Assembly: GCA_017961365.1 (NCBI GenBank)
Contig: JAGCXI010000034.1
Span: 1 to 32,680, forward strand
Source: Clostridia bacterium
GTDB taxonomy: Bacteria > Bacillota > Clostridia > Christensenellales > CAG-1252
DNA length: 32,680 nt
Reading direction: 5' to 3'
A program made the translations under genes and the position numbers. The stretch's first letter is position 1, and the number at the start of each line of letters is the position of its first letter. Below the pieces are notes generated by a model that was not told the DNA's origin, searched no databases, and saw nothing but the letters and a program-made list of their open reading frames with translations. Positions 1-29,808 of the stretch are shown one piece after another.

Positions 1-134
1 ACGATGCCGACGATCTGTAAGATGAAGACCATCTCGGGCGCGCCCACGCTTAAAGCGATGAGCGTCGAGATCACAGTCGCCGCCAACACCGCGATGAATG
101 CAGCTATCACAAAGAAAAATTTAGTCCCTTTCAT
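1..134 (-). CDS. Membrane protein, N-terminal fragment (cut by window edge)
   Basis: This is the 5' end of a gene that continues beyond position 1. The 44 visible codons begin MKGTKFFFVIAAF and are strongly hydrophobic: a stretch from about residue 5 to 28 looks like a transmembrane helix or uncleaved signal anchor, and a second hydrophobic stretch starts at about residue 33. There is no lipobox cysteine in the visible part. The ATG at 134-132 is preceded by a good Shine-Dalgarno (GGAGG). It follows the 768-aa cysteine-cluster gene by 35 nt on the same strand, so it probably belongs to the same transcription unit. Too little is present to name a family. The membrane location is inferred from hydrophobicity only. 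Confidence 0.7.
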   Translation of the reverse strand, partial: MKGTKFFFVIAAFIAVLAATVISTLIALSVGAPEMVFILQIVGI

Positions 135-169
135 ATCTTCCTCCGATAGAACACAATCCTTGATGCTTA

Positions 170-2476
170 TCAAATAATCTCATTTTTAACGTCTTCCTGC
201 CATTTTCCGAATGCCTTCTCGCCTTTTCTCGTAAGGACATAACGCTTCAAGCCGGAGAGACCTTTCTTGTCTTTATAAATGATGGCGCCGCGCATCGTCG
301 ACCATCTGCCGCGATTCTCTTCCTTACGCACGGCGCAAATATCGTCCGTATCGTGCGTATTCGGCAAGATCGTGACGGCTTCGTTCTTTTCCTTGATGTC
401 GAAATACAAGCCGCCGCAGATCTTACAGATCGAACAGCTTTGGATCGAAGTGATGCGGATGAGATCACGATTCTTTCCGTCCAAGGAGACCGCGCGGGAG
501 AGCTTCTCCGCGAAGCTCTTCAAAAGGTCGGCAAGCTCTTTCTTGAGAGCGTCGATGAACGCGACCTTCTTCTCCTCCGAGAATCCTTCCGTAAAGCGCG
601 CGAGAACGCTCGGCGCGATGATGTCCGCAAGGGAGAGCGCCTTGACGCCGAAGTCACGCAGCGCATCCAAATTGGGCGTGCTCGCCCTATCATCCTGCAG
701 CTGCTTTTTCCTTTCTTCCCCAAGCGTCACGAGGAAAGGATCTTTCTCGATCCCTTTCTCCGCGCAATACGCCTCGATCAGGAAAGTGTCGAAAGGATCG
801 TTCATCGAGAGCGTCCAACTCTCCGCGAGCGCCTTTTTCTTCTCTTTGAGCGCTTGCAACGTGGGCGCCTTCTTTACATTCTTCTCCAAATAGTCGCTGA
901 AGAAGACGGAGATGCAAGCGGAAGCCGTCTCGTTCTCTGCGGCTCTCACGCCCTCTTCCCCGCTCTTTTGATAGGTGGAAAGGAAATCCTTCTTTTGGGT
1001 CGCATACGAAAGCGGAGAATAAGCCGCCACGACCTCTTTCGTCTTATGATTGATAAAGACCATATCGCGGTTGCGAAGGACGCGTGCATTCTCCTTGCCG
1101 CTATCCTCTTTGAACGCCTCGTCATAGAACCAATAGACACCCTCTTGGCAGGCGCAATAATCAGACATCCGGTCCTCTCCGGACTTCAGTCTGCCGAGCA
1201 CGCCCGCGTCGCTCGTATCGTCCCACTTATGCAAGAATTCTTTCTTGGGAAGGACAGAATAACCATAGAAGGCGGAGAGCTCCTCGATCTTGGAATAAGG
1301 ATAGAAACGCTGTCCGCAGAAGGGGCATTCCTCCGACATACAAGCGCGGCAGCCCACCGCATAACGGTATCCCGGCTTGTCGTCGCGGCTCTGCCCGATC
1401 GCCCGATACTCTTTTCTCCAGTTCGGATCTGCGAAAAGCTCCATATCCCTCTTGCCGTATTTATACCTTCCGCAAGAAGGCGTGGGGCATTTCAAGATAT
1501 TCTCCGTGGAGATCAGCGCCGGCTCATAGACAAAATACGCCGCGCCGTCGGTATTATCGAAATTCTTCTTAATGCTGAGAAGATTGCAAGTGTCCGGCTT
1601 GATCCTCGCATCGAACCTTGCGGGATATTTCTGTATCCTGTAATACTTCGAGGCTTCCGCCTTTACTCTCAAGACGCCGAAGATCTGCTCGCTATTCTCG
1701 AAGAAGGACTGCTTATTCAGCTTGAGATCCAACATCTCGACCATATGCCTGCGCACGCGGTTTTTCTCACGAAGCTCGAGCAAAGGTCCGATCCCCTCTT
1801 TCGAGGCATGCGCCGTCAACCATTTCTTGAAACGCGCATTGGCTTCGATGGCCTTATCATCCTTGCTCGCCTCGCGGATATCCACGGCGATGGCTTCGCT
1901 GACGATCTCCCCTTCGGACTCCGGATCCTTGAAATCACGATGTGCGGATCTCTGGAAACGGAAAGCCAAGGGGAAAGCCTGCTCTCTTCCGTTATCGTAT
2001 TTCGCCCTGCAATCGAAGACTTCTTCATAGCAATCGGGATTCTCTTCGGGATCCAGCCTTCCCGCGACGGTGGCATTCTGATCGATCCAAGCAGCGCACA
2101 TGCTCTTGATCTCGCTCTGCACTTCGCTGAGCTTGATCTCTTCCGGATCCTCCTTACAAGTCAAAGGGAGATAACGCAAAAGCTTATATGCGGCGCTTAG
2201 GAGCAGCTCCTTATTCTGCGCCTGCGTGATCAAGGGGAGCTCGCTGTCGTTGATACTCTCCAAAAACGCCATATTGTAATGCGTCTTCAGATCCACGACA
2301 TTGCTCTTCTCGGGATTCTCGGCGCCTTTATCTTCAAGATCGACGACCAAGTACTCCTCATTATTCAAACGGATCTTCAAGACGCGGTCATTTCTCGGAT
2401 CCGGTCTCTCGATGATCTCCAATACATGTTCTTCCGCCAACAACGTGGCTAACTGTACAACTCCGTTCTCTTCCAT
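170..2476 (-). CDS. Hypothetical protein with several cysteine (putative zinc) clusters, partner of the upstream helicase
   Basis: I do not recognise this 768-aa protein. It has no signal peptide or membrane segment and is probably cytosolic. Cysteine pairs fall in clusters: CPTPSC near residue 330, CRACMSEECPFC near residue 375 (CxxC-x4-CxxC), a CAC near 438, and CSICKICGG near 682. The second and fourth read like zinc-ribbon or treble-clef knuckles, so metal binding is inferred. Between them the protein is charged and of mixed secondary structure. The last 40 residues are basic (YVLTRKGEKAFGKW) and might be a small winged-helix-like tail, which is speculative. The ATG has a GAGGTGA ribosome site lying in the 12-nt gap after the helicase stop, so translation of the two is probably coupled. 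The context suggests a dedicated cofactor, nucleic-acid recognition subunit or substrate adaptor of the helicase. Confidence 0.8.
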   Translation of the reverse strand: MEENGVVQLATLLAEEHVLEIIERPDPRNDRVLKIRLNNEEYLVVDLEDKGAENPEKSNVVDLKTHYNMAFLESINDSELPLITQAQNKELLLSAAYKLLRYLPLTCKEDPEEIKLSEVQSEIKSMCAAWIDQNATVAGRLDPEENPDCYEEVFDCRAKYDNGREQAFPLAFRFQRSAHRDFKDPESEGEIVSEAIAVDIREASKDDKAIEANARFKKWLTAHASKEGIGPLLELREKNRVRRHMVEMLDLKLNKQSFFENSEQIFGVLRVKAEASKYYRIQKYPARFDARIKPDTCNLLSIKKNFDNTDGAAYFVYEPALISTENILKCPTPSCGRYKYGKRDMELFADPNWRKEYRAIGQSRDDKPGYRYAVGCRACMSEECPFCGQRFYPYSKIEELSAFYGYSVLPKKEFLHKWDDTSDAGVLGRLKSGEDRMSDYCACQEGVYWFYDEAFKEDSGKENARVLRNRDMVFINHKTKEVVAAYSPLSYATQKKDFLSTYQKSGEEGVRAAENETASACISVFFSDYLEKNVKKAPTLQALKEKKKALAESWTLSMNDPFDTFLIEAYCAEKGIEKDPFLVTLGEERKKQLQDDRASTPNLDALRDFGVKALSLADIIAPSVLARFTEGFSEEKKVAFIDALKKELADLLKSFAEKLSRAVSLDGKNRDLIRITSIQSCSICKICGGLYFDIKEKNEAVTILPNTHDTDDICAVRKEENRGRWSTMRGAIIYKDKKGLSGLKRYVLTRKGEKAFGKWQEDVKNEII

Positions 2477-2488
2477 TTTCTCACCTCA

Positions 2489-5400
2489 TTATTCTACGCC
2501 GCAAGCCGAAACAAACTCGGAAATATCATCTTTGATGGCAGCCGTAAGCTCTTCCACGGCGCCGTCCTCGATGATCCTCGCCATATTATTGAGACGCATC
2601 TGGACTTGCTTGCAAAGATGGATATAGATCGCCAATAAATGATAAAGATATTTATTCACGATATCATTGTAAATGCTGAAGATGGAGGGCTCGCTGAGCG
2701 TCACGTCCTCCGACGTGCTCCACGCCGTCGTTTCGGAGAGGAAGTCCGCGATCGCCGTCTTTTGCTCTTTGGTCAAAACCTCCAAATAATCCGCGGCTTC
2801 CGACTTCGCGCTTTCGTCACTCTCGATGACCGCAGGACCATGCGCCCGACGGACTTCCTTCTTGAGCATCTCGCCGCTCATATACGCGCGAATGGCGTTA
2901 TACAAAAGCTTCAAGCTGTCGTCGTCGTCCTCCTGCTCGAAGAAGGCGGTGGTATTTGCCGTGTGAAGACGATCCGAGATCGTGGAAATGACCTCATTCG
3001 TCTTCGCATCTTTCTTATTCTTAAAGAAATTCAAGACATAGCCTGCGATGTCAAGGAAGAAATGCTGATAATAAAGGAAGCGAAGATCATTCTCGATGAC
3101 GCTCAAATTACTGAGCTTTTCATAAGATTGATAGACGAAGGGGTCCGACGGATCCTTTAAGTCGTCGAAGATGAGCTTCAGACAATAATCCTTTTTCGCA
3201 TCCGATCCGCCCTTGAACGAGGCTTTCTTATCCGCGGGGATCTCCCAGATCAGGCTGGACGCCATATCCTTGAAAATATTCTGCAATTTCTGAGAAAGCG
3301 TTCTCGCTTGATTCTCGATATGCTTTTCGAGCGTGTACCAAACCACGCCGTTCTCCTTCGGCGCGTCGCCTTTTTGATAAATGCAACGGTCGTATTTCTC
3401 CTGCCCGTTTTCCGTCACGTAACGGAAATGGAGGGAGCTCTCCATCTCTTTGCGAATCGTTTCGTTGAGGAGGGTCTTGAGCTCTTTTTCGTCCTTCTTG
3501 CCGATGCTCTTCAGCTTCGCCTTGACGAAATCATAGAACTGCGCGACGCCTTCGCCTTCCGCATGATCCGAAATGATCTTATACGCCGACTCGAGCTCGG
3601 AGACGATGGAATCGAAAGAGGAAAGATTTTCCTTCTCCGCCACGGGGAAAGAGACGATACCCGTCGTATCACCGTTCCAACGATTAAAGAGATGCAAGCC
3701 GTTCGCAAGGAAGGAGGTGGAGAATCCGCTCCAGTCATTGAGCGGCGTGAAAGCGTAGATATAGATATCGCGGTCCAAAGCGTTGTCTTGCTTGACACGG
3801 TCGATACGTCCGATACGCTGCTCCATCGCCAAAGGACTGTGCAAGATGTCGAAATTCACAAGGTGTGTCGCCATCTGCAAGTCCACGCCTTCTTCGTACT
3901 TTCCGGCGGGAACGACGACCAAGACGTCGCCTTCATTCTTGAGGTCCTTGACATCATGCGAAATGGTCCAGCCCGGCCAAGTATAGGGCTTATGTCCGTA
4001 CTTATGCTTATATTCTTCCTCTTTATGAGCGTTCTTCTCTTTTTCCGCGGTAGCGCGTTCCTCGAGGAGCTTCTCATAGAGGAGGTCATTGATCTCGTCC
4101 TTCGTGAAGACCAAGATCTTATACGTGCCTTTCTTCCTCTTGATCTTTACGCCTTCCATCCCGTCCGGATCGAAAAGATTGATGAGCATATGCATACGGC
4201 TGAGGAAATAATCCGGCAAGCCGCTCTGTCTCTTATTCACATAGCTGTACAATCCCGCCATCCCGTCGTCGATGACTTCTTTATAGACGTAATTCGCGAT
4301 CTCTTCTTTATAAGCGCGGATCGCCTGCTGTTTCTTATCCTGAAGCTCGATATTCGCCTCGTCGGAATTATATTCCTTCTCGATGCTCTCGATCTTCTTT
4401 TGCGCGCTCTTGATCCTTGCGGACCATTCGACGGCTTTCTCTTCCGCCAAAGCCTCCATATCCGATTTCTCGCGGAGCTTTGTCTTCTGGACGGTGGCGT
4501 CTCCTTCCGACAGGACACGCACGAGATTATTCATATTCACGCGCGCTACGTAATCGAAATAACGGTCACGGCGGCAGATATTGATGACGACGCCGTTTCT
4601 GCGGCTCCAAACCGGCATATTTTCCACGCCGTACTCCGCCTGCTTCTCCGGTTTCAAGAGCTTGAGCCAAGGCTCGGAGATATTATCCGTCTGGTGGCGG
4701 GTGGTACGGATGCCGAGCTTACCGTAACGATAACGCCAAGCGCTGAGACCCTCTTCGGAATTCACGAGCTCCTGAATGGTCTTGATCGGCTTATTATTTC
4801 GATCCACGAAACGGGACTCGAAATCCTTCCTATCCGCATTCAAATAATCGTAAACGAGGATCGCGATGGTATTATTATCGAGAATGCTCATCAAGGCACT
4901 TACGGTGTCGCTGTCCACGCTCTTATTGTACTCCGCTTGATATTTTTCGATCACGGAGGACCAAGTCTCGTCGAAATGATTGACTTTATAGAAAATAAGA
5001 TCCTCGGCGATATCGCGCATTCTCTTGATGGCGAGAGGATCGCCGACATACCCGATGATCTTTTTCCAAGCCGCGCTGTTGATGAAATAATATCTCATCT
5101 CGCTGATCAGATAACAGACGAGATCTTTACGCGTGATATAATTGAAAGTCTCCGCCTCGAGCTTTTCCATCGAATGGACTTTATTCTGCATAAGGGGATC
5201 CCCTTTCATCCTTTCTTCGATGGCGGACCGATTCTTGATGATGCTCTCGATCTGCGCGACGACCATCGTCATAATGGACTCGGCATTTTCGGCGAGCTTA
5301 TTATAGTCCAAGAACTGCGCGCCCTTCTTCGCCCCCGTGACCTTATCGAGATCGAAATCGAGATGCGAATCTCCGCCGCGGAGGAGATTCAAAAGATAAA

Positions 5401-6904: not shown

Positions 6905-6922
6905 ATATATCTGTCCTCCCTC

Positions 6923-8806: not shown

Positions 8807-8817
8807 CGTCTGTCTCC

Positions 8818-9830
8818 TTATTCCACAACTTCTTCCACAATGTATTCCAACGTCGCAAACGCGGAATCAAGATAAATCAAATGCTCGAAAACGCCACCGA
8901 TCGCTTTGACCGAGACCGTATGCTTCCCTGCCTTGGTTTCATCGGAGATGCCGATCGTCGTGAGGAATTCATCCCCGCCGTCGACGGACGCTTTATACCC
9001 CGAAGCATGCTCGACGGACGCCCACGTGACGCTCCCGCTCGCCTTTTCCAAGGAAGGCGCGGAGAGCGTCTCCACGCGTATGGCGAAAGTCTCGGCATCG
9101 GAATCGAGATAGATCGTATTCGCATCCACGCTGCCGATGGCTTTGACATAGATCACGTGATCCCCCTCGCCGAGCTTGGACGCGTCGAAGCTGTCTGCGG
9201 AGCGGAAAGCATTGTTATCCGCCTTGGCTTTATAACCGCTCGCATGCGGAACAGGCGTCCAAGTGACGGTCGTCCCGCTCTGTGAAAGCGAAGGCTTGTC
9301 AAGCTTCACAACGTCTAATTCAAACTCAGCGGAAGCATCGGAATCGCGATAAAGGGTATATCCCGATACGCCGCCGAGCGCCTTGACCGAGATATTATAT
9401 TCTCCGACGTCCAGTCCGGAAACGTCGAACGACGTTGCGTTTCCTTGCGATTCGTCATTCATCGTCACGGCATACCCGAAGGCATTCGAGACATCATTCC
9501 AACGAAGCATCTTTTCCGCATCCAAGGCAAGCCCCGTCGGCTTCTCGAGCTTCGCTACGGTAAGATTAAAGGAAGCCTTCTCGGAATCAAGATACACCGT
9601 GCCGCCGGACACGCCGCCCACCGCTTTCACGGAGACGGGATGCGTTCCCACCGCGACGCCCGCGAGAGAATACTCTCGCTCGGAGATCCCCGCGGTCTGC
9701 GAATCGATCTTCACCTCATAAGAGAATGCGGAGGGGACTGCAGTCCAAGACAAGGAAGCGCCCAAGGTCAGGGCGGGCGTAGCGAGCTTCACGACGGAGA
9801 TCGCTTCGGAAGGAACGGAATCGAGATAAT
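8818..9830 (-). repeat. Tandem ~80-aa protein repeats at the lipoprotein C-terminus
   Basis: Four consecutive modules share the ending KAxGxVxxxxxYxDS. Visible examples are KAVGGVSGGTVYLDS, KALGGVSGYTLYRDS, KAIGSVDANTIYLDS and KAIGGVFEHLIYLDS. Measured at the conserved plus-strand hexamer GGAATC (the LDS/RDS region), the copies lie at 8863, 9100, 9340 and 9583, so the period is 237-243 nt. A more diverged fifth copy with YLDSVPSE lies near 9818. Copies differ at many bases, so they are old or diversifying duplications, not recent identical ones. Confidence 0.85.
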
Positions 9831-12800
9831 TCCCATCCTCATTTCGAGCAATGACACGCAAGGTATAAGCACCCGCTTGCAAAGCCTTCCAATTATAAGA
9901 AGGATCCGCCGTGTCCGCTTTATAAGCGTCGCCTGCCGTAATGATATACGTCACCGCAGAACTCACTTCGCTCCAACTGAGAGACTCATCTTTATTCTTC
10001 ACGATATTCGAGACCGTCGCAAGCTTCGTGACGGTGACGGACTCGGAAGGAACGGAAGGCAGACGGAACGCCGCGGGATCCCCGAGCTCGGAGACGCTGA
10101 TCACATACGTGCCTGCCGCAAGCATGGGATCGAAAGCCGCCTCTCTGACCGAATGCACGCCGCCGATCGCCGCATTAAAGGCATAGCGATATACGCCGTT
10201 CGTCAAGTCGTTATGCGCCCAAGTCAGCTTGGAGCTGTCCGTGACATCCCCTTTCGCCGATACGAAGGTCAAAGCCGTCGGCGTCACCGAACGGACGTAC
10301 GTGCGGACCGTCTTATCGGAATCCAGCGTAAGCTTCTCCGCAGTGCCCACCGCATAGATCGTACATTCGCCTTGCTCTCCCGAAGCAAGCTCGGCTAAAT
10401 AAGCGGCGGAAAGGCTCGTCGCGCTCGTCACGTCGGAGCGGTCGCTCGCGTGCGGGATCTTATTTATATAAGAATAGTTCTCGTATTTGTCACTGTTCGC
10501 AGCGTCATCCACGCTCCAACAAAGCGCGAAAGAATCATTCATCGTTATCGTCGGCGCCACGAGCTTATAGAAGCGCACGGTCTGCTCCGCCGAGGGGAGA
10601 TACGGGATGTACTGCCCATCGTATTTCACACCGTCGCCGTCGTCATCGTTATTGAGATACGCCGAGAAAGCATGCGTACCCGAGGCGAGCGAAGCGCTCG
10701 GAACGGCGTAAGTAAGGTCGGTCGCAGTCGAACCCTCTCTCGAAAGCACGGCGCCGTCAAGCGAATACGTATATTTATCCGTAAACGCTTTGCTGAAAGA
10801 GAGATCCACGAAGGCATCTGCCGTCGGCTTCCTGAAGGAAAGCTCGGGCGTCGCCTGCCTACGCACGATCATCGTGGAGACGTCCGTGGAATCAAGCGTA
10901 TTTTCGCCGTCGCCGAGCGCGCGGAAGACCAGCTTGTAATATCCCGCCGCGGCGAGATCCAAGACGCGCCGCCCCGCGCCGCCGTCCAAAGCGTACTGCG
11001 CGGTCTTATCGGAAAGATCGAGCGAGCGCGACTGATTCGCGGCAAGGACATAGCTCTCATCCAAAGCGTACTCTGCTTCCGCGGGATCGTTATCCGTCTT
11101 TTTGTAAAGAGCAAGCGCGACGCCTGCGGGACCTGCGGCGTAACCGTAGTCACTCATCGAGATCACCTGCGAAGCATAAGCGAGCGTCGGCTTCTTCAAG
11201 CGGACGACGGTGATGACCGCCGAGGCGGAATCAAAGACGGGGATCGTCGTATCTTCGCAATTCGCCGTCACCGTCAAGGTATGCGTGCCCGCTTCCGCGA
11301 GCTTTGCGATCGTATTATTCAAAGCATATTGCAAGGCAGAGAAATAGGTCGAAGAACCGCTGACTTCGATCTTATATCTCGTCGCGCCGTCGACGCTCTT
11401 TTTCACATGCAAGTAACTATCCTTGATCTCGAGCTCGGGCGCCGCAAGACGGGTCACGCGATAAATCGCGGGATCGGAAGCGATCGTGGCGGAATAGCCG
11501 GTCTGCATCGCCGCATTCACGATATGCACGACGTTCTCCCCCGCGCTGTAACTTGCGAGATTACTCTTCAGATTGATAAAGGTGTCGCTCTTGTCAAGAA
11601 GGAGCTCCGTCCCCGTCGAAAGCGAGTAACTGCAAGAAAGCCGCTCTCCGTCTGCGCCCACGCCAAGCGAGAGCCTTCCATTCGAAGAATATTCGCGGAT
11701 GTTCGGCGTCGCATTCTTATAGAAGGTCAGCGAGGCGTATTCGCCGTCGAGATAAAGCTCCGTATCGGACTCCATCTCCTCTTCCGCGTCCTCATCGTCG
11801 ATCATGACTTCGAGGTCCGAAACGGAATAACCGTAACTATACGCCACCTTGAAGGTATAGCCGCCCGCAAGGAGGCTCCCATTCGACAAGAAAGCGTCGT
11901 ACTCATAAGCATGCGCCTCATTCGTGAGGATCGTCTTCACGTAATCCGTGGGCGTCGTCGACGTCCCTTTGGAGAAGACCACGCTGTATTGATAAGTATT
12001 CGAGGGCTGCTTCCAAGCAACGCTCCCCGACGTGACGGTGAGAGGATTCTGCGAGACACTGAAATTCTCCGCCTTATGGATCTGCACGAGGACCTTATCG
12101 CTCGGCACGGCAAGGAAGTCGCCGTTCATCAAGCTGTCCTCCGCGCGGAGGGCGATGGTGGTGACGCGAGACTGGATGGCGGAAGAATTCTCCAAAACGT
12201 ATTTATTTCCGACGTACGGGAGGATGTCATTCCCCAACGTACAGCTATGAGAATAACTGCCGTCCGAAATGATCTCGATCTCGATGCGGTCGCGATCATT
12301 ATACTGCGCGCCGCCTTGCACGTGGCGGATGCGATAAGAGGGCTTTTGCAGCTTCAAGATCGTCTTGGTCTCGGAATATTTTCCCAAGCACCCCTTCTTT
12401 CTCGTCGTCTCGCCGTCGCAAACGATCGTAGAGCCGTAATTCTTCATGTCATTGCCCGTGACCGAGATGCGATACGTGCCGGAAGAGAGCGGATTTTGCT
12501 CCGTACCGAGGACATACAAGACCTTGCTGTCCACGCTCTTGAACTCCGCCTTTCCGTCTTTCTCCTGCCTCACCGTATAGACGGTATCGCCGCCGAGATG
12601 CGACCACGAGACATTGACCCCGACATTCGAATTCACCGAAACGACGGGAGCGTCCAATACATAAAGCCCCGTGATGCTCGCCCAACGGCTGAACGTATTT
12701 TTGGTTTGATAGATCGGCTTCACGTAAAGATCCACCATCGTATCCGCTCTGAGATTGCTCCCTTCTTCATAAAGCACCATCGGCTCGGAGGTGAAATCCA

Positions 12801-13887
12801 CGCGATCCGACCAAGGCGTGCCGTCCGTTGTCCCACGCAAATAATAGGAACAATTCTCGATATTATTCCAAGTGACGGCGCCTCCCGTCACGTCAAGCCC
12901 CGTAATGGGAGCATTCATCTTGACATTCACTTCCGCGACGTCTGCGGGCGCGATATAAAGCCTGCCGTCGGGATCCACGACGTTATCCGTCCCCATCGGC
13001 TCCACGCGCAGATTGAAAGCGCTGTCAAGCTGCGAGATCTCCGGGAAAGCAAGCTTCACTTTTCCCTGCCCGCCGCCGGGCGTCTCTTTGGGGGTGGTGC
13101 GTACGGCGGGTCTGCTGAGCTCATTCCCGTAATACGCCGTGACGACATAACCGAAAGAATTCGCCACTTTCGAGATGAGGATGCTTTCCTCCTTATCGTC
13201 ATACTCGATCTGCCCTACGGAGCCGAGCTTGCAAAAATCAATGGGGTCGCTCCAATAAGAATACGCCACATTCAGCTTGCCGTCCTCATAAGAAAGAGGC
13301 ACGGTCTCGCGAATGCGTACTTTATAAAGCTTGCCCGCCTCGAAATCATAAGTCATAGAAGCGCCGGAGACCGAGACAAAAGACTCCGCGCCATCCACCT
13401 GCAATGCGATCTCATATTGCGGATTCTTGGCGTTATCCGTCTGCTCCCAGCTGAGCGTGACAAGCCCGTCTTTCGTGATGGAAGCCGCCACGGACGCGCG
13501 CGCGATATCATTTAATTTATAAAAAGCAATGGGCTGGAGCACTTTCCATTCTCCGCCCTCATAATATTCCAAATTATATTCACAAGTCTCCGTGAAAGGA
13601 AGCGTCACGTAAGACATCCCCGCTTCTACGGAGATCACGTCATTCTGCCGCTTATCATAAAGCCGTAGCTGACGATACGGGATATTCTCCCAAGAGAATA
13701 CCAAGAGCCGCTCCGACGTCCTCGATGAGAGAGAATAAACGGGCGTGTCGGAAGAAGTATCTCCTCCTCCCGACGACTCACCCGGCTTATTCTTCCCGCC
13801 GCAAGCGGCAAGCGCCATAGTGACTGCCACTGCAAGGCAGATCACTATGGCGAGCAAAATAATTCTTGTCAGTTTTTTCTTTTTCAT
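8818..13887 (-). CDS. Giant FN3-like repeat lipoprotein, 1689 aa
   Basis: A predicted extracellular, lipid-anchored beta-repeat protein. It starts MKKKKLTRI, has a hydrophobic core and a lipobox ALAAC (Cys29), then a Gly/Ser/Asp linker. At least ten units show the pattern W-x-x-V-x-x-A-x-x-Y-x-V typical of FN3-like sandwich domains, for example LSWTAVPSAFSYEV and VTWASVEHASGY. The last roughly 330 residues are four clear tandem copies of an approximately 80-aa module. There is no catalytic motif, LPXTG or transmembrane tail. The ATG at 13887 is the only plausible start, because an in-frame TAA lies three codons upstream. It lacks a normal Shine-Dalgarno: the nearest AGGA lies on the far side of a GC-rich hairpin. 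It is the third gene of the putative operon, 57 nt after the previous lipoprotein. Binding to a glycan or host surface is a family-based guess. Confidence 0.88.
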   Translation of the reverse strand: MKKKKLTRIILLAIVICLAVAVTMALAACGGKNKPGESSGGGDTSSDTPVYSLSSRTSERLLVFSWENIPYRQLRLYDKRQNDVISVEAGMSYVTLPFTETCEYNLEYYEGGEWKVLQPIAFYKLNDIARASVAASITKDGLVTLSWEQTDNAKNPQYEIALQVDGAESFVSVSGASMTYDFEAGKLYKVRIRETVPLSYEDGKLNVAYSYWSDPIDFCKLGSVGQIEYDDKEESILISKVANSFGYVVTAYYGNELSRPAVRTTPKETPGGGQGKVKLAFPEISQLDSAFNLRVEPMGTDNVVDPDGRLYIAPADVAEVNVKMNAPITGLDVTGGAVTWNNIENCSYYLRGTTDGTPWSDRVDFTSEPMVLYEEGSNLRADTMVDLYVKPIYQTKNTFSRWASITGLYVLDAPVVSVNSNVGVNVSWSHLGGDTVYTVRQEKDGKAEFKSVDSKVLYVLGTEQNPLSSGTYRISVTGNDMKNYGSTIVCDGETTRKKGCLGKYSETKTILKLQKPSYRIRHVQGGAQYNDRDRIEIEIISDGSYSHSCTLGNDILPYVGNKYVLENSSAIQSRVTTIALRAEDSLMNGDFLAVPSDKVLVQIHKAENFSVSQNPLTVTSGSVAWKQPSNTYQYSVVFSKGTSTTPTDYVKTILTNEAHAYEYDAFLSNGSLLAGGYTFKVAYSYGYSVSDLEVMIDDEDAEEEMESDTELYLDGEYASLTFYKNATPNIREYSSNGRLSLGVGADGERLSCSYSLSTGTELLLDKSDTFINLKSNLASYSAGENVVHIVNAAMQTGYSATIASDPAIYRVTRLAAPELEIKDSYLHVKKSVDGATRYKIEVSGSSTYFSALQYALNNTIAKLAEAGTHTLTVTANCEDTTIPVFDSASAVITVVRLKKPTLAYASQVISMSDYGYAAGPAGVALALYKKTDNDPAEAEYALDESYVLAANQSRSLDLSDKTAQYALDGGAGRRVLDLAAAGYYKLVFRALGDGENTLDSTDVSTMIVRRQATPELSFRKPTADAFVDLSFSKAFTDKYTYSLDGAVLSREGSTATDLTYAVPSASLASGTHAFSAYLNNDDDGDGVKYDGQYIPYLPSAEQTVRFYKLVAPTITMNDSFALCWSVDDAANSDKYENYSYINKIPHASDRSDVTSATSLSAAYLAELASGEQGECTIYAVGTAEKLTLDSDKTVRTYVRSVTPTALTFVSAKGDVTDSSKLTWAHNDLTNGVYRYAFNAAIGGVHSVREAAFDPMLAAGTYVISVSELGDPAAFRLPSVPSESVTVTKLATVSNIVKNKDESLSWSEVSSAVTYIITAGDAYKADTADPSYNWKALQAGAYTLRVIARNEDGNYLDSVPSEAISVVKLATPALTLGASLSWTAVPSAFSYEVKIDSQTAGISEREYSLAGVAVGTHPVSVKAVGGVSGGTVYLDSEKASFNLTVAKLEKPTGLALDAEKMLRWNDVSNAFGYAVTMNDESQGNATSFDVSGLDVGEYNISVKALGGVSGYTLYRDSDASAEFELDVVKLDKPSLSQSGTTVTWTPVPHASGYKAKADNNAFRSADSFDASKLGEGDHVIYVKAIGSVDANTIYLDSDAETFAIRVETLSAPSLEKASGSVTWASVEHASGYKASVDGGDEFLTTIGISDETKAGKHTVSVKAIGGVFEHLIYLDSAFATLEYIVEEVVE

Positions 13888-13900
13888 CGTTATTTACTGA

Positions 13901-13919
13901 GGGGGCAGGTCTTGCCCCC
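13901..13919 (-). other. GC-rich hairpin in the 57-nt gap between two lipoprotein genes
   Basis: A perfect 7-bp stem GGGGGCA/TGCCCCC with a 5-nt loop lies 13 nt upstream of the ATG of the 1689-aa lipoprotein. On the transcribed strand it is followed by TCAGTAAATAACG with no U-tract, so it is not a standard terminator. An AGGA lies just upstream of the stem. The hairpin could stabilise a processed mRNA end, cause partial attenuation, or act as a structured spacer between the ribosome site and the start. Confidence 0.65.
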
Positions 13920-13944
13920 GTTCCTGATTTTTACGCTCCGAGAC

Positions 13945-16900
13945 TTATTCGGCTGCCGCAGCGGAGATCGTGCTTGCGGAAATACCCGGATCATAGATCT
14001 TGGTGATATACTGCGTGGAAGAGAAGGTATCCGACTGATTTCCGACCGCCAAGATATAGACCTTGATCATGATGTCGCCGTTATAATTCTTCACGTCTCT
14101 CTTATACGTCGCGACGATATCATAGATGTCATTCAAGATGTCATCTTCCTCCGCAGCCGCATCCTTATATTTGATGATGGCATTCTCGGACGTGATCTCC
14201 TCCTGTCTCACACCGACGCCGATAAGATCGCCACCGAATTCCAAGACCTCGTAATACATCCTGTACGTCGCATCCGCGATCCGATTCCAAGAAACGTCGA
14301 TATCATTTCCGTAAGACTTTTGGATCGTAATATCATTATCATTGACCTCGCCGAGGAACTTGACCGTTCCGGCATTTTGGAAAGCGGAAGAATAAACGTA
14401 CGTGCCGTAGTCATCGAAGTAATCACCGTGATGCGCGACGGAGATGGTCTTCGTGCCGACCTCACCCTCCGCAAAGACATAGGTATTGCCGTCGATATAG
14501 CGCATGATGCCGTCGCCGAGATCGAGGATAAAGCCATTGCCTCTATTCTGCGAATTCACTTCCAAGGCGACTTTTCCGCCGTCCATGAAGAAGCCGATCA
14601 GCGGCTTGCTCGGATTTTTCAGCGCGGGCACGTCATTCGTCTTCGTCGGCTGATAATAGACGTAAGTATCGGAATCCATCGTCTTCTCATTATCGCCTTT
14701 ACAGACGACGGTCACGATGGGATAAGGATATTCATCCGTGAACTTCGGATCCAAATAATAATATCCGTCCTCGGCGTTGTATTCATATCCTTCCGTATTT
14801 TCCTTGCTCTTCTCTCCATAGGTATATTTCTTTGCGAGAGAGACGGAGATCTCGTAAGAGCTCGCCACGCGCGGCTCGCCCGCATTTCCGCTACGATCAT
14901 ACGGCGTGTAAGACACAGGCTGCCATCTATAGGTGCTGCCATAGGTCTGCCAAGCGGCGTCGATGGTCGGAAGCTTCACAATACGCGTCCACTCATAACC
15001 TGCCACCACCTCGCCTTTCTCCAGGATCGCGGAGTCGGAGGTGAAATAGGTCTCGTTATCGCCCACGGAACGCACGTTGAAGAAATGTGCGCCGACGCCC
15101 ACGGAAGAGAGGTCAAAGCTCTGTCCCGTCACGACGCCGATCAAGATATTTCTGTCATAGACCTCGAAATCCGTCACGTTGATCTTATATTCGGGCATCG
15201 TCCATTTCAAGGAGCTGCCTTCCACGATGAGGTGGGTCGGAGGCGCAAGCTTGAAGAGCGGCTGCGTCGGCGTAGCGCCGGAGTCCATCGTGATGGGCTC
15301 GCCGTTTTCGAGATTTTTCCCGTGATTACCGATGGCATAGATATAGAAGACACAGCCTTCCTCGGTGAGGGAGAAAGCGGAGCCGTCCGTCTTATAGGTG
15401 AGACCTTCGAGCTTGACGGAATTTCCTTTCACGATGTCGTCCGTCGAGCCCTTCGGCGTCAGCTGGAAGACCTCCGTGCCTGCGCCGCCCGCTCTATTCA
15501 CCGTGATCTTATATCCGACCGCGCCGTACGTGGCGTCCCAAGTCAGCACCGTGCCGCCGTCGATGATGCGGACGTTCTCGGGGGTCTTGAGCTTACTGAG
15601 ATAATAAATGTTCGAGAAATCCGAGCTGATGACGACGCCGTCCTCGGGAACGAGCTCGCCGTCACCCACGCCTGCTTGGACGGTGAAGGACTTTGCGGAG
15701 CCTCTGTAAAGGACGCCGCGCGCGCTCACTCTCGCCAAATAGTCGCCGTTGCTGAAACGAGCGAGCGGAGAAGCCGCTGTGCTGAAGACGTCGTCGATGG
15801 CGCCATTCGCATACAAAGTGTATTGCTTCTCATGCTCCTCCATAAGATTCTCATAGTCCCAAACGTTCTCGTCCGTCCAGACCAGATTGCTGTCGTCGTC
15901 GATGGCGAGATCCTTCGGCGTGGCGAGCTTGCAGAGCTTGACCGTCATCGGAGCAAGCGAGCTCAAAGTGAGCTGACCGTTGATGATGGAATTCTCATTA
16001 AAGCTCATCGAACGCACCTGCAACGTGAAAGTCTTTTTCGCGGTCGAAGAAGGCGTCACAAAGGTGAATTCGCGATCGGTCGTGCCGCTGCTGATCGTCG
16101 TGCCGTCCAAAAGGAGCTGGTAATAGGAGTCATTGCCGCCGATGGTGTCGAAGGCGATCTTCAAAGCATAAGCGCCGTTCGCTTGATTCTCAAGGTCGGT
16201 GGCGGTGAGCTCCTCGGAGAGATAGAAATGACGGGGCGAGGGCAGTCTCGTAACGTGGACCGCATCCGACGGGACGCTATTCACGTACGCCGACTTTCCA
16301 TCCGTATTCACCCCGGCGAGGGTGGTGAGATAAACGTTATAATTCCCTTCCTCTTCAAAAGGATAGGAAGCGCAAAGGACGTCCTTCGCAAGATCCTGTT
16401 CGATGGTCTCGACGATCTCATTATTCGCATTGAGCTTCTCGACGGTGAAGCGGAAGCCGTCACCCTCCGGAACGTAATCCCAATAGAAGAGACCGTTATC
16501 GAATTTCAAGGTCTTGGCAGTAAGGTAATTTGCGGAGATACGCGCGGACCAATTCGTATAGACCGCGGCGCCTTTCACATTCGGCTTGACTCTGACCACG
16601 ATCTGATGGTTCGCCACAATGCCGAACTTATAAGAGGTGCCTTCTTCGACGAGATGCTCCTCCACGTCGGAGCCCGATCCGCCCTCCACGAGGACGTAAT
16701 AGGAATCTGCCACTTCATTCGCCCTCCATTCGACGCAATCTCCGTTAAAGCGGACGCCTTCCACCGCATCGAGATGGGAGACCACTTTCGGGTCGGAATA
16801 ACGGCTGCTCTGATAAAGATTCTCATCGGAGGAAGCGGCTTGGATGGAGATGCTCATACGGGCTCTCTTGGCGGCGTCCTCAAAGACATCGGGATAGGTC

Positions 16901-17634
16901 TGCTCAAGATTCAGCGCATTGACATGCACCGTCACCGCCGCATGCTCTTCGGGCGATCCGTCCGCCGCATACGTCGTAAGCTTTACGTTATACGTGGGAG
17001 CCATCTCCTCGAAGGAGACGGGAGCCCAAGTAAGATACGTGCCGTCATAAAGAGGCTGGGGCGGCGTGGCAAGCATCGTAAAGGAGACTTCCTCACTGTA
17101 CTTGCCGAAGACGTCCTTCGAGCCGACGAGATAAGGTCTCACGCGAAGACGGCTGATGCCCGTCGGCGCGGGATAACTCGACTCGTCGGTATCGATCTTT
17201 TCCTTATTGATCCAAACGAAATAACGAATGGTATCATCGGGATAAGCCGCCTTGAGGGAGGCATCGGACTCAGACCAATCATAATAACCGTCCTTCGCCA
17301 CGACCGTCACGACAGGCAGACACTTGAAGGAGCCGGTGATCGTGCCGATCTCCTTGCCCTTCTCGTTATAGACCTCGACGGATACGTCAAGATTCTCAGC
17401 CGCGTCATCGGGAACGGCGATCTCATAGGTCGTCCCGTCCACGTCCTGCTCTTCGCCGTTCACAAAGGCTTTGCAGACCGTATTCGCGATGGGGTTCGCC
17501 ACCATCAAGACGCCGTCTTTCACCGTAAGCGTGGTTTCTTTCAGAAGCTTGCTGTCGCAAGCGGTCAAGCAGACCGCGCAGACCAGCAACATTGCTATCA
17601 ATACAATACTTAATACTTTTTTCATACTATTCAC
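13945..17634 (-). CDS. Large FN3-like repeat lipoprotein, 1229 aa
   Basis: Predicted surface lipoprotein. MNSMKKVLSI is followed by a hydrophobic segment and a lipobox CLTAC (Cys26). The mature protein carries about eight FN3-like units marked by W-x-x-V and Y-x-V patterns, for example YLTWAPVSF, CVEWRANEVADSYYV and VLTWDATYGAVGYKI. Linkers resemble those in the neighbouring lipoproteins (KLATPKDL, KLKTPENV, KLAPPTHL), which suggests descent from one ancestral module. There is no sorting signal, enzyme motif or membrane tail; the C-terminus is Ala/Ser-rich (ISASTISAAAAE). The start has a GAGGTGA ribosome site at normal spacing, 18 nt after the stop of the first lipoprotein. A long open frame on the opposite strand over the same DNA has no start signals and is a codon-bias shadow. 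The ligand is unknown. Confidence 0.88.
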   Translation of the reverse strand: MNSMKKVLSIVLIAMLLVCAVCLTACDSKLLKETTLTVKDGVLMVANPIANTVCKAFVNGEEQDVDGTTYEIAVPDDAAENLDVSVEVYNEKGKEIGTITGSFKCLPVVTVVAKDGYYDWSESDASLKAAYPDDTIRYFVWINKEKIDTDESSYPAPTGISRLRVRPYLVGSKDVFGKYSEEVSFTMLATPPQPLYDGTYLTWAPVSFEEMAPTYNVKLTTYAADGSPEEHAAVTVHVNALNLEQTYPDVFEDAAKRARMSISIQAASSDENLYQSSRYSDPKVVSHLDAVEGVRFNGDCVEWRANEVADSYYVLVEGGSGSDVEEHLVEEGTSYKFGIVANHQIVVRVKPNVKGAAVYTNWSARISANYLTAKTLKFDNGLFYWDYVPEGDGFRFTVEKLNANNEIVETIEQDLAKDVLCASYPFEEEGNYNVYLTTLAGVNTDGKSAYVNSVPSDAVHVTRLPSPRHFYLSEELTATDLENQANGAYALKIAFDTIGGNDSYYQLLLDGTTISSGTTDREFTFVTPSSTAKKTFTLQVRSMSFNENSIINGQLTLSSLAPMTVKLCKLATPKDLAIDDDSNLVWTDENVWDYENLMEEHEKQYTLYANGAIDDVFSTAASPLARFSNGDYLARVSARGVLYRGSAKSFTVQAGVGDGELVPEDGVVISSDFSNIYYLSKLKTPENVRIIDGGTVLTWDATYGAVGYKITVNRAGGAGTEVFQLTPKGSTDDIVKGNSVKLEGLTYKTDGSAFSLTEEGCVFYIYAIGNHGKNLENGEPITMDSGATPTQPLFKLAPPTHLIVEGSSLKWTMPEYKINVTDFEVYDRNILIGVVTGQSFDLSSVGVGAHFFNVRSVGDNETYFTSDSAILEKGEVVAGYEWTRIVKLPTIDAAWQTYGSTYRWQPVSYTPYDRSGNAGEPRVASSYEISVSLAKKYTYGEKSKENTEGYEYNAEDGYYYLDPKFTDEYPYPIVTVVCKGDNEKTMDSDTYVYYQPTKTNDVPALKNPSKPLIGFFMDGGKVALEVNSQNRGNGFILDLGDGIMRYIDGNTYVFAEGEVGTKTISVAHHGDYFDDYGTYVYSSAFQNAGTVKFLGEVNDNDITIQKSYGNDIDVSWNRIADATYRMYYEVLEFGGDLIGVGVRQEEITSENAIIKYKDAAAEEDDILNDIYDIVATYKRDVKNYNGDIMIKVYILAVGNQSDTFSSTQYITKIYDPGISASTISAAAAE

Positions 17635-17652
17635 CTCATCTATTCACGCCTA

Positions 17653-20600
17653 TCAGCCGATCGTGAAGGTATGGTCTTGATATCCGAGGATATTAAAGAC
17701 ATTCGTTTCTTCATCACCATACGGTTTGATGCGAAGCGCAACATAGGTCTTATCGCTCGAAACGGGGATCAAGATGCCTTTATCTTTCGCGACAGACTCT
17801 TGCTTATCCATAGCCGGCGTCAGCGTCGTCAGGAGCTCTTCCAGCGTGGTGCCTTCGACATCCGCCGCATTGTAATAATAGAGCTTATAGTCAAATCCCG
17901 TCGCGCCGGACACGGGATCCACTTCGATCGCCGTCGTGCCGTCCGCCTTTCTGATATAACGCACGTCATAGCGCGTGATGAGCGGCAAGACGGTGAAAGT
18001 CGCCGCCACGCACTCATCGGAATCAAGATACCAATGCGTCCTATCCACTCTGTCGCCGGAGAGCGCGCGTACAACGACTTCGTACTCACCGGAAACGTCC
18101 ACGTTGATCTGCGCATTTCCGTTCTTCATATCCGCCGCGGAGAAGACATGCTCCACGCCGCCGATGCTGACGCCGTACTGCTTCGCCTGAAGCTCGACGC
18201 TGCTCTTGACCTTGATGACCACGACGTTTCTGCCGGGGAGGAACTCGACAGGCTCGAAATCCGCAGCGCTCAAAGCCGCGTGCTTGGTCAAGGTGGTAAT
18301 GGGGTACGTAGAGCTCAAGGAACGAATGGAGGTGAGGCCGTTATCGCCAAGGCCATAGACTTCCATCTCGATTTGATCTCCTTCTTCGCCGTAAATGAAG
18401 GGCTTGAAAGAATTATGCTCTTTCTGCGCGTAGATATAGGAATTCGAGCGCACAGTGCCGTCTTTCGAGATATATCTCACGACGACGCAGTAATTCGTAA
18501 CGTTGGTGTCGCCCGTCCAAGTGAGCTCGCCCGTCACTTCATTGCAAGCGGTCTCAGGCGTCTTGATGATCCTGATGGAGATCGCATTGCTCTCGTCGGA
18601 CTCGAACCAATACTCCGTGCCCGCCGCATTGACGGAATAATTCTTCTCACCTGCGTCATCCGGCTTCGCGACGACCGAGAAGCTATAGACATTAACGCCG
18701 TTATTCGTCTTGCCGTACAAAGTCTCCAAAGCGATCTCGCCGACGGAAACCTCCATGGGATCCGCATTCGGAAGGATGGTCACGGAAGGATCCGCCTTGG
18801 TGGTCTGTCCTGCGGAATTCTGAACGTTCGGGATGGCGGAAACGGGAAGCTTCGCCACTTCTTCAGAGCCATAGCTCAAGGAATACGCGCCCGCATTCTC
18901 CACGGAAGACCAAGTGATCTTACCGTCGGTCACCGTCGGAGTCTTCGGCGTCTCAAGCTTATAAAGCATGATCTGCGCGGAGAGATCGGAGGAGAGCACC
19001 GCCGCCTTATCCGCATCGGCCTGCAAGACGCCGCCGAGGGCGCGCACTTTGACCGTCGTGCCGGAGATCAGGATCTCGGAGGGTCTGACTTGATAAGTAT
19101 TCGCATTCGCGGACTCCGTCCTGCTGCCGAGGGACACCGCGTACTGCACAGCCTTAAAGCTGATGTCCGTACCCGTCGTGTCGATGACGCCCGCCTCCCA
19201 AGTCAGCGTATAGCCGTCCGTGGATTTATCCGTGATCGCAAGACCCGTCGGAGCGGCAAGCTTATAGAGATAATAAGGACTGGAATAGAAGCTCGAAACC
19301 TGAATATTGCCATTTCCTCTCGCCGCGACATAAAACTTATAAAGACCCGCCTCCAAGCCGCCGAAATCGGAAGTCGACGTGCCGAAGATGGAGCCATTCC
19401 TGACGAATTTATCGTCTCTGTCATAGATCACATAGCTGTAACCATTGGAATTCTCAACGGCGCTCCAAGTGATGACGCCCGCATTGCAGGACTGCACCTT
19501 CGGAGACGCAAGCTGATAGAGGAAGAACTTATTGTCCGCCGTGTCATTCAAGATAACGGTGTCGAAATCTCCTTCCACGTCGGTGACCGTAGCCGCCTTA
19601 CCTCTCTTGGAATTCTTCGCGATAAGGAGCTTATCCGCAAGATCGCTCTTGGCTTGCACTCTGATCCAATTCGTATTGGAAGCTTCGGCAGCGCCGGACG
19701 CCATCTCATAAGCAAGGTCGAAAGCGAAAGCATAGACATTACCGGTCGGCGTCGTATTCACCTCGAGATTCTTCACGGCGACGTCGCTATACGTGACTTC
19801 GACGCCATCCGCGTATTTCGGGAGATTATACGTCGCGGCGACGCGTCCCGAGACAAGCTGCTTGCCATCCTCGAAGACGGGCTCTTTGACATCTTCCGTC
19901 ACGAAAGTCACCGCGTCGATGGTCTGCAAGATGACGATACGGATGGGCTCGGAATATTCGGAGTCGGAATAAGGCGCTTTGCCATTCGACTTGACATAGA
20001 AATAATACTCGCCCGCCGCGGTCGTCGTCCAATTGAACATCGTATCCGTGAAGGTGTCATAACCGAGATCTTTCATCTCCTGTCTCGCGCTGGAAGTACG
20101 CTCTGCGTCCTTACAGACATAAACGCTATAGCTCGCAACGTCGTCGATGGGCGACCAGACGATATTCTTCGCGCTCTCATTGGAGCTCCAGGTGAGCACG
20201 GGCGCTTTGAAGAACTTCACCCTTCCGCCGTTATCCGCCATCGTCCATTCGGAGAAGCACTTGCCTTCATAACGGCTCGGCTTGACCATCACGTCGTACT
20301 CGATGTCCGGCTCGAAGCCGCCGAGAGAATTCTTCTCCGTGGTGACGATCTCCTCATGCCATACGCCGTCCGCCGTTCTGTATTTCTTATAGACTTCATA
20401 GACCGTGGCGTCACGATTCTCTTCCCAAACGATGCCGCCGTCCGCCGTGCGAACTCTTGCGATGGGGTCGAGATATGTAAAGGACTCGTGCGTCGGATCG
20501 GAATCAACGATATCCTTCGAAGGATCGCCGATCGCCGTGATCCTCACCCAGAAGGACTTATGCTCGTTCTCGTTATAATAGCCGCCCGCCGTGGGGAAGC

Positions 20601-21378
20601 CATCCTTATCTCTCTCAAAGAGAGCCACCGCAGGCTTATAAACGTACTGCGGCACTTCCACCTCTTCCGTCTTGCCTTCGAGCTCGACCAAGTACTTCGT
20701 GGCGTTCGGCACTTCGTCCCAAGTGATGAGCGCTCTCATCGTCATGGGGATCACGCCGTCGCCCTCATACGCGTCGTTATAACGGATATTCGTGGGCGCT
20801 TGCAAGATCGTGACTGTCTTTTTATTCGACCAGACACCGAAATGCTTGGCTTCCGTCACGAGCGGCTTGACGCGGAGAGACGCCTGATCGGTGTCGCCTT
20901 CGCAAACGGGCGCGAGAGACAAAGCCTCGGTATAGCCGGGGTACTCCGTGCCGTTCTGCTCGTAGACGTACTTGGTGATGCCCGAGACCGCAGCCCATCT
21001 GAAAGCGCCGTCTTCGAAGGTCACCGTGACGGGTCCGACCGCCGTAAAGGTCTCGGTCGTCGCTTCCTCGGCGTCTCTGTAGAACTTGCTATCCTCGTCC
21101 GCTTTTGCAAGCACCGAGATCTTCGCGTCCACAGCGACTTCGATGGCGTACTGCGTCTCCTGCGCCGTGTATGAAGCACCGTTGACGGTGACCTCATAAG
21201 AAGCGGCGTGCTTGACGGCATCCCAACTGATCAACTGCCCGTCATACGTGAGACTCTCGGCGTCGACCGCATCAAGCGCTTTTTTCTTGATGGAACAGCC
21301 GGCGAGAGCGCACGTGAGCACAACGAGACAGACGATCACTGCAACTATGATGATGCGTTTTGTCATTGCGTTTCTCAT
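17653..21378 (-). CDS. Large FN3-like repeat lipoprotein, first gene of the operon, 1241 aa
   Basis: Predicted surface lipoprotein. Starting at MRNAMTKRII, it has a hydrophobic core and a lipobox CALAGC (Cys28), followed by SIKKKALDAV. About ten FN3-like units follow, recognisable by W-x-x-V-x-x-A-x-x-Y patterns such as LISWDAVKHAASYEV, ALITWDEVPNATKYLV and KITWSSVENAGAYSL. A late HWYLDSDE segment matches the YLDSD signature of the repeat module in the 1689-aa lipoprotein. I chose 21378 over an in-frame start at 21447 because a perfect AGGAGG lies 6 nt upstream of 21378, and because the predicted transcription start (about 21441) makes 21447 impossible. As the promoter-proximal gene it leads the whole lipoprotein-helicase unit. 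No LPXTG motif or catalytic site was seen. A role in binding polysaccharide or host surface is plausible but not shown. Confidence 0.88.
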   Translation of the reverse strand: MRNAMTKRIIIVAVIVCLVVLTCALAGCSIKKKALDAVDAESLTYDGQLISWDAVKHAASYEVTVNGASYTAQETQYAIEVAVDAKISVLAKADEDSKFYRDAEEATTETFTAVGPVTVTFEDGAFRWAAVSGITKYVYEQNGTEYPGYTEALSLAPVCEGDTDQASLRVKPLVTEAKHFGVWSNKKTVTILQAPTNIRYNDAYEGDGVIPMTMRALITWDEVPNATKYLVELEGKTEEVEVPQYVYKPAVALFERDKDGFPTAGGYYNENEHKSFWVRITAIGDPSKDIVDSDPTHESFTYLDPIARVRTADGGIVWEENRDATVYEVYKKYRTADGVWHEEIVTTEKNSLGGFEPDIEYDVMVKPSRYEGKCFSEWTMADNGGRVKFFKAPVLTWSSNESAKNIVWSPIDDVASYSVYVCKDAERTSSARQEMKDLGYDTFTDTMFNWTTTAAGEYYFYVKSNGKAPYSDSEYSEPIRIVILQTIDAVTFVTEDVKEPVFEDGKQLVSGRVAATYNLPKYADGVEVTYSDVAVKNLEVNTTPTGNVYAFAFDLAYEMASGAAEASNTNWIRVQAKSDLADKLLIAKNSKRGKAATVTDVEGDFDTVILNDTADNKFFLYQLASPKVQSCNAGVITWSAVENSNGYSYVIYDRDDKFVRNGSIFGTSTSDFGGLEAGLYKFYVAARGNGNIQVSSFYSSPYYLYKLAAPTGLAITDKSTDGYTLTWEAGVIDTTGTDISFKAVQYAVSLGSRTESANANTYQVRPSEILISGTTVKVRALGGVLQADADKAAVLSSDLSAQIMLYKLETPKTPTVTDGKITWSSVENAGAYSLSYGSEEVAKLPVSAIPNVQNSAGQTTKADPSVTILPNADPMEVSVGEIALETLYGKTNNGVNVYSFSVVAKPDDAGEKNYSVNAAGTEYWFESDESNAISIRIIKTPETACNEVTGELTWTGDTNVTNYCVVVRYISKDGTVRSNSYIYAQKEHNSFKPFIYGEEGDQIEMEVYGLGDNGLTSIRSLSSTYPITTLTKHAALSAADFEPVEFLPGRNVVVIKVKSSVELQAKQYGVSIGGVEHVFSAADMKNGNAQINVDVSGEYEVVVRALSGDRVDRTHWYLDSDECVAATFTVLPLITRYDVRYIRKADGTTAIEVDPVSGATGFDYKLYYYNAADVEGTTLEELLTTLTPAMDKQESVAKDKGILIPVSSDKTYVALRIKPYGDEETNVFNILGYQDHTFTIG

Positions 21379-21384
21379 GTGAAT

Positions 21385-21390
21385 CCTCCT
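21385..21390 (-). promoter_or_regulatory. Shine-Dalgarno site fixing the first lipoprotein start
   Basis: AGGAGG on the minus strand, 6 nt before the ATG at 21378. It is the strongest ribosome site in the operon and decides between this start and the in-frame upstream one. Confidence 0.8.
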
Positions 21391-21448
21391 CTTTATTTTG
21401 AAGAACGGCGCGGCGAACGAAACTGTATTTTCTCCACGCCTTATCACG

Positions 21449-21477
21449 ATTATAGCATTGTCGTGAGTTATTTACAA
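21449..21477 (-). promoter_or_regulatory. Sigma-A-type promoter of the lipoprotein-helicase operon
   Basis: On the minus strand, -35 TTGTAA and -10 TATAAT are separated by exactly 17 nt, with an extended TGC before the -10. The predicted transcription start is near 21441, giving a leader of about 60 nt that ends in a strong AGGAGG site. It is a near-consensus housekeeping promoter. No other obvious promoter was seen in the short gaps downstream, which supports one long transcript. Confidence 0.8.
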
Positions 21478-21872: not shown

Positions 21873-21901
21873 TTGTCTCACGTTCGCGCGTGTGCTACAA
21901 T
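21873..21901 (+). promoter_or_regulatory. Promoter of the GH125-rhaBAD operon
   Basis: TTGTCT and TACAAT are spaced 17 nt apart, with an extended -10 TGC. The predicted transcription start is near 21908, giving a leader of about 36 nt to the ATG at 21944. The -10 lies inside an upstream in-frame extension of the first gene, which argues against the earlier start codon. Confidence 0.7.
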
Positions 21902-21943
21902 GATACTTGGCGCGGAGCACGATCTCCGCCGAGTGAGGCGACC

Positions 21944-25895: not shown

Positions 25896-25896
25896 C

Positions 25897-26767: not shown

Positions 26768-26796
26768 GAGTCCCTTGAAAACGAGGGACTCTTTTT
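26768..26796 (+). terminator. Intrinsic terminator for the GH125-rhaBAD operon
   Basis: GAGTCCCT-TGAAAACG-AGGGACTC is a perfect 8-bp stem followed by TTTTT. The T-run overlaps the stop codon (TAA, 26797-26795) of the convergent esterase gene. It lies beyond the minus-strand terminator, so the two transcripts overlap for about 75 nt. Confidence 0.8.
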
Positions 26797-27787: not shown

Positions 27788-27788
27788 A

Positions 27789-29806: not shown

Positions 29807-29808
29807 AA

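Follow-up and report, generated by a model that had tools for sequence, protein, structure and literature searches.

The window, the whole stretch of DNA analysed here (32,680 nt), is the entire contig C66 of a Clostridia bacterium draft genome (1.4 Mb, 75 contigs, 88% complete). On its minus strand, a promoter-like site at 21449-21477 (TTGTAA-17-TATAAT with an extended -10 TG, 10/12 consensus matches) is followed by seven same-strand genes separated, in order of transcription, by 18, 57, 11, 18, 12, and 35 nt, as the original prediction of a single-promoter operon had stated. The first four products are lipoproteins, also as predicted: P0006 (17653-21378, lipobox LAGC), P0005 (13945-17634, LTAC), P0004 (8818-13887, LAAC), and the 627-aa P0003 (6923-8806, FVAC). 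Next come a 1471-aa SNF2-family ATPase (P0002, 2489-6904), a 768-aa cysteine-cluster protein that is probably zinc-binding (P0001, 170-2476), and the first 44 residues (1-134) of a giant surface protein with five transmembrane helices (5TM), whose gene is cut by the contig end and continues on contig C67. With the C67 part included, the operon is well over 30 kb long.

P0006 probably starts at ATG 21378, giving 1241 aa, because the listed GTG at 21447 abuts the -10 box; an AGGAGG at 21390-21385 precedes this ATG. The start of P0005 is either GTG 17634 or ATG 17625. Several long ORFs on the plus strand (e.g., 13912-17613 and 10450-13515) were rejected as antisense shadows of the real genes. A divergent rhamnose operon lies at 21890-26715 (a GH125-like protein, rhamnulokinase, rhamnose isomerase, and rhamnulose-phosphate aldolase, named by eye), and beyond it SGNH hydrolase and V-type ATPase genes occupy the minus strand at 26795-31572.

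The four lipoproteins had originally been described as giant and FN3-like. This description fits P0006, P0005, and P0004, which are long repeat proteins with repeats that are FN3-like but weak by profile (E 3e-4 for the F2-pyocin fibre and 0.017 for FN3con); it does not fit P0003, which is not giant and in which no FN3 signal was found. Among 13 genomes of the genus, P0003 and full-length P0006 were present in exactly the three that carry the window-type SNF2 gene, with P0003 directly before the SNF2 gene in all three and absent from the other ten genomes. G001 and G008 were the only genomes with full-length relatives of P0006, which adjoin the rhamnose operon at the same chromosomal site. G001 had the window's order P0006-P0005-P0004 (88% identity for P0005, 90% for P0004) and its flank of GH125, rhamnose, and V-ATPase genes. 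In G008, P0005 was 43% identical with the order unchanged, and the P0006 and P0005 relatives adjoined GH125 and a rhamnulokinase relative. Against G001, dN/dS was 0.064 for the SNF2 gene; two lipoproteins had values of 0.17 and 0.28, and the metabolic and V-ATPase genes of the flank lay at 0.00-0.13. These values indicate purifying selection on the operon, with its surface proteins changing faster. With this SNF2 value and with conserved order and flanks, the operon is beyond chance. Of the subtypes of the system described below, only the window's own was seen to include the lipoproteins.

P0002 scored above the Pfam cut-offs for both PF00176 (30.6 bits versus 24.9) and PF00271 (24.4 versus 23.5), and its helicase motifs I, II, III, and VI (GMGKT 90-94, DEVH 422-425, TATP 491-494, QRIGRIDR 1029-1036) are intact and invariant in relatives. 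By these features P0002 is an SNF2-family ATPase of superfamily 2, in agreement with its first reading as an SNF2/RapA-like ATPase. RapA was the closest solved structure for the ATPase core (E 7e-36), and DrmD, DpdE, and BrxHI gave the best SNF2 matches among defence models. In the relative from G008, the SNF2 gene contains an in-frame TAG stop (L009:3038-3040), which may reflect a sequencing error, a pseudogene, or recoding. In P0001, ten cysteines (C376, C379, C384, C387, C441, C443, C681, C684, C687, and C714) are invariant in five relatives; zinc binding is predicted, as had been proposed. Its relatives in G149 and G363 are at 19-23% identity. An AlphaFold2 model of P0001 with four relatives had a mean pLDDT of 36, and we therefore make no fold or nuclease claim for this protein. 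Profiles recognised no nuclease in P0001 or P0002.

The last gene, first read as a truncated membrane protein, is indeed a membrane gene, but one that encodes the N-terminus of the giant 5TM surface protein. It resumes on contig C67 (G000:C67:47260-56466, minus strand) as a 3068-aa frame after a gap of ~9 residues. In the whole protein, of ~3,100 aa, five membrane helices at the N-terminus are followed by a short shared domain, after which come long extracellular repeats. C67 supplies genes below position 1, which the original prediction had proposed to identify by extending the contig: the rest of the giant gene is followed by a gene for a protein of ~1,870 aa that has BspA-type leucine-rich repeats (LRR) and three membrane helices, and then by genes for a 278-aa membrane protein with a HELGH motif and a small membrane protein. 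The HELGH protein (L160:10714-11550) may be site-2-protease-like, and no Pfam match was found for it. A relative of the giant protein was found at L008:1317-5516 (L008 is contig C84 of G001, equal in length and with a 100% identical protein), and the zinc-protein gene adjoins the giant gene in L008 and G008 also. Across loci, all giant proteins have 4-5 N-terminal helices and a common first extracellular domain; of two relatives with Pfam-recognised repeats, one has MBG repeats and the other Flg_new repeats.

To survey the distribution of the system, we used a profile of ten SNF2 proteins against 396 genomes of the order, a class sample (n = 391), and a phylum sample. In the order, the profile matched 40 of 396 genomes and 17 of 142 genera, a patchy distribution. 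Only G000 and G021, both members of this order, matched in the class sample, and the phylum sample yielded only ordinary SNF2 proteins of 465-621 aa. Contig ends left 36 loci intact (two further loci were cut), from 17 genera and at least six families; of these, 35 carried the SNF2 gene, the zinc-protein gene, and the gene for a giant with 4-5 transmembrane helices in this order on the same strand, mostly closely spaced or overlapping. This trio was not found outside the order in the class and phylum samples. It was equally tight in operons whose surface protein was only ~1000 aa. The identity of P0002 to SNF2 proteins of other subtypes fell to 18-28% (about 20% across types), which indicates that the gene order has been kept through long divergence. 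Chance adjacency of the trio is rejected by the genome survey together with the 35/36 loci. G149 and G363 have an additional gene, of ~850 aa, between the SNF2 and zinc-protein genes. The sole exception was G344, where the SNF2 gene (L033:7548-9869) is followed by a polynucleotide-phosphorylase-like gene, without the zinc-protein and giant genes, which may reflect translocation or misassembly.

The conserved unit therefore joins SNF2 ATPase, zinc protein, and 5TM giant protein, and not the helicase with the lipoproteins. When the adjacency of the originally predicted helicase and cysteine-protein pair was checked, the pair was constant and its partner was the truncated membrane gene in 35 of the 36 loci, but lipoproteins occurred only in the window's subtype. 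The outcome named as counting against the prediction, pairs usually found without lipoproteins, thus holds across the order but not within the window's subtype (three of the 13 genus genomes). Among viral contigs and phages, no relative of the SNF2 protein was found, and plasmids gave only generic SNF2 fragments covering at most 9% of the query among the matches listed, with no full match.

Four subtypes were distinguished by the genes that accompany the trio. Subtype (a), the window's, comprises the lipoproteins, SNF2 ATPase, zinc protein, giant, and LRR protein. Subtype (b), the commonest, has an Hsp70-like protein before the trio, and well-covered loci add further genes after it, including a helicase-nuclease and a Cdc48-type AAA protein. 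Subtype (c), seen in G149 and G363, has SPFH-zinc ribbon, ESCRT-III-like, and AAA proteins followed by the trio and an LRR protein. Subtype (d), in family f32, has trypsin-Sel1, SPFH, ESCRT-III-like, AAA, and zinc-ribbon LRR proteins followed by the trio. The Hsp70-like protein of subtype (b) matched DnaK by profile (E 8e-12) and belongs, by its Hsp70 nucleotide-binding domain, to the Hsp70/DnaK superfamily. In two genera, loci of this type occupy fixed positions beside housekeeping genes. One such operon encodes a 1500-aa SF1 helicase-nuclease (L117:2143-6645) that matched DUF4011 and REase_MTES_1575 and, among PADLOC models, PDC-S37 (4e-120) and Hhe (4e-54). The G363 operon of subtype (c) encodes a fusion of RuvB-like and TnsA-nuclease-like parts.

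Small helical proteins in several families (L030:3362-6474, L031:11075-13647, L125:2174-2749, and L126:9346-9930) lie beside SPFH-zinc ribbon and AAA genes and matched CHMP3, CHMP2a, and CHMP1b by profile (E 1e-5 to 9e-4). The CHMP3 match (E 1e-5) spans most of the length; the Pfam Snf7 score was 18.3 bits versus a cut-off of 27.3. By eye, these proteins end in MIM1-like helices. When a model of the small helical protein was compared by VIA-align, bMERB domains ranked above ESCRT-III, a mixed structural ranking, so that structure alone is no proof of ESCRT-III. The MIT-like domain of the AAA protein matched mostly designed TPR proteins, with weak matches to the VPS4 MIT domain (E 0.19-0.29). 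Taken together, these genes are candidate bacterial ESCRT-III-like clusters. They resemble the ESCRT-III/Vps4 machinery of archaea and eukaryotes in their CHMP-like small helical proteins with SPFH-zinc ribbon and AAA genes alongside; however, they occur in G149, G363, and the family f32 operons and are absent from the window's genome, where the ESCRT-III-like profile found none and an AAA search gave only a weaker, core-only match. In surveys, Snf7-type ESCRT proteins are reported to be essentially archaeo-eukaryotic, with a few bacterial exceptions (PMC11188069, PMC11237479). The candidate clusters in the sister operons are relevant to whether bacteria use Snf7-type membrane remodelling beyond the PspA family. 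The Hsp70-type operon also encodes a coiled-coil protein of ~240 aa that was considered as ESCRT-III-like, which neither a PDB profile search nor profile comparison supported; the AAA protein beside it resembles Cdc48 and not Vps4 in particular.

No named system with the operon's combination of genes had been known to the original prediction, and we found none. DISARM (DrmD), Dpd (DpdE), and BREX (BrxH) provide the nearest family models for the SNF2 core, but the DrmD and DpdE scores were a fraction of the curated cut-offs (NF038317, 97 versus 610 bits; NF038318, 49 versus 950; DpdE NF041062, 90 versus 500), and the other genes of those systems were unmatched in the operon. In particular, P0001 and P0003-P0006 had no match to the DISARM companions DrmA, DrmB, DrmC, or methyltransferase. 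RapA is the best solved-structure match of the core, but P0002 reached 63 of the 576 bits required by the NCBIfam RapA equivalog model (NF003426), and the gene context is unlike. Among open-licence papers, we found no description of an SNF2, zinc, and giant-surface-protein combination. The gene association appears new, a label that does not extend to the mechanism; we found no described counterpart of an SNF2 motor kept beside a giant surface protein through deep divergence.

For Zorya, it has been proposed that a membrane complex detects infection and brings in an effector of the nuclease type (PMC11890865). The window's system may be analogous to Zorya, though not a member, in having a sensor part embedded in the membrane, which in Zorya is proposed to engage an effector, helicase or nuclease, that acts on DNA (PMC11890865). 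In contrast to Zorya, with ZorA-ZorB and cytosolic ZorC/ZorD or ZorE, the membrane part here is a giant 5TM repeat protein, and no nuclease was recognised in the window's subtype. Among the operon proteins scanned, no PADLOC or Pfam match to a ZorA/ZorB-like pair was found (the window's own giant protein was scanned by Pfam only).

The nucleic-acid-type motor and the giant envelope protein are tightly associated, and this association is old and order-specific. We tentatively favour, with less than even confidence, an order-specific envelope system that couples the giant surface protein to the motor, as a membrane-tethered nucleic-acid conflict system analogous to Zorya, over an envelope machine. 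From the SNF2 family and the nuclease-containing partners in subtypes (b) and (c), we infer that the system acts on DNA, and from its architecture that it senses at the surface. The giant protein, with the lipoproteins and the LRR membrane protein in the window's subtype, would be a cell-surface sensor or barrier, and its membrane part would hold the zinc protein and SNF2 ATPase at the inner face. The motor would translocate along or strip entering DNA, e.g., phage or conjugative DNA. In the sister subtypes, nuclease-containing partners could degrade this DNA, and AAA, ESCRT-III-like, or Hsp70-like partners could remodel the assembly or the membrane. Kiwa likewise couples membrane sensing to a DNA-acting effector, and the system would work like Zorya or Kiwa with unrelated membrane parts. 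The constancy of the trio, the defence models as best SNF2 matches, the helicase-nuclease and RuvB-TnsA-like proteins of sister operons, the common N-terminal architecture of the giants, the patchy presence, and the faster change of the surface lipoproteins than of the SNF2 gene are consistent with this reading. However, the window's subtype has no recognised nuclease, three species of the genus share one site for the locus and the Hsp70 type is also fixed, unlike mobile defence islands, and no copy was found in viral contigs or phages and no full match in plasmids. Restriction to one order is also unusual for defence genes, and SNF2 ATPases act outside defence too, RapA being the closest solved structure. 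It is unlikely, in our estimate, that the whole is an undescribed surface-to-DNA system in which a giant 5TM receptor directs the SNF2-zinc motor and, in several subtypes, ESCRT-III-/Cdc48-like machinery and nucleases, so that entry would be sensed, DNA processed, and the membrane resealed.

The vertical inheritance at fixed sites and the purifying selection would also suit a housekeeping-type envelope machine, in which the cytosolic ATPases (SNF2, and Hsp70-like and AAA proteins in sister subtypes) fold, export, anchor, or recycle the giants or shape the membrane, with no role against foreign DNA. The Hsp70-like, Cdc48-type AAA, SPFH, and ESCRT-III-like partners point in the same direction, as does the share of the surface protein, which makes up most of the coding length. 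Yet nuclease genes (helicase-nuclease and TnsA-like) occur in sister operons, only about 10% of the order's genomes carry the system, and we know of no SNF2 ATPase that acts as a protein-export motor; we rate this explanation as somewhat unlikely. Two of the readings offered originally, a surface-exposed defence system with a membrane sensor and a surface machine with a cytosolic motor, are both plausible. Should the system sense envelope events and act on DNA, membrane-linked immunity in Clostridia would gain a new layout; as an envelope machine, the system would give SNF2 ATPases a new use.

The structural match to RapA and the great length of the operon would fit a surface-adhesion locus whose transcription is under the control of the RapA-like SNF2 protein and the zinc protein, which might recycle stalled RNA polymerase, or one in which these two proteins control phase switching. 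The low RapA equivalog score and the equal tightness of the trio beside ~1000-aa surface proteins make this improbable. Although the domain types come from unrelated processes, the third original reading, adhesion genes with a hitch-hiking and functionally unconnected defence pair, is very improbable, given that, in at least six families and at an SNF2 identity of ~20%, the pair and the surface protein stay together, and that P0003 and P0006 are confined to genomes with window-type SNF2. Elsewhere in the window's genome, contig C59 (L141:1-6659) encodes a further FN3-like lipoprotein of more than 2200 aa, related to P0006 near the N-terminus only.
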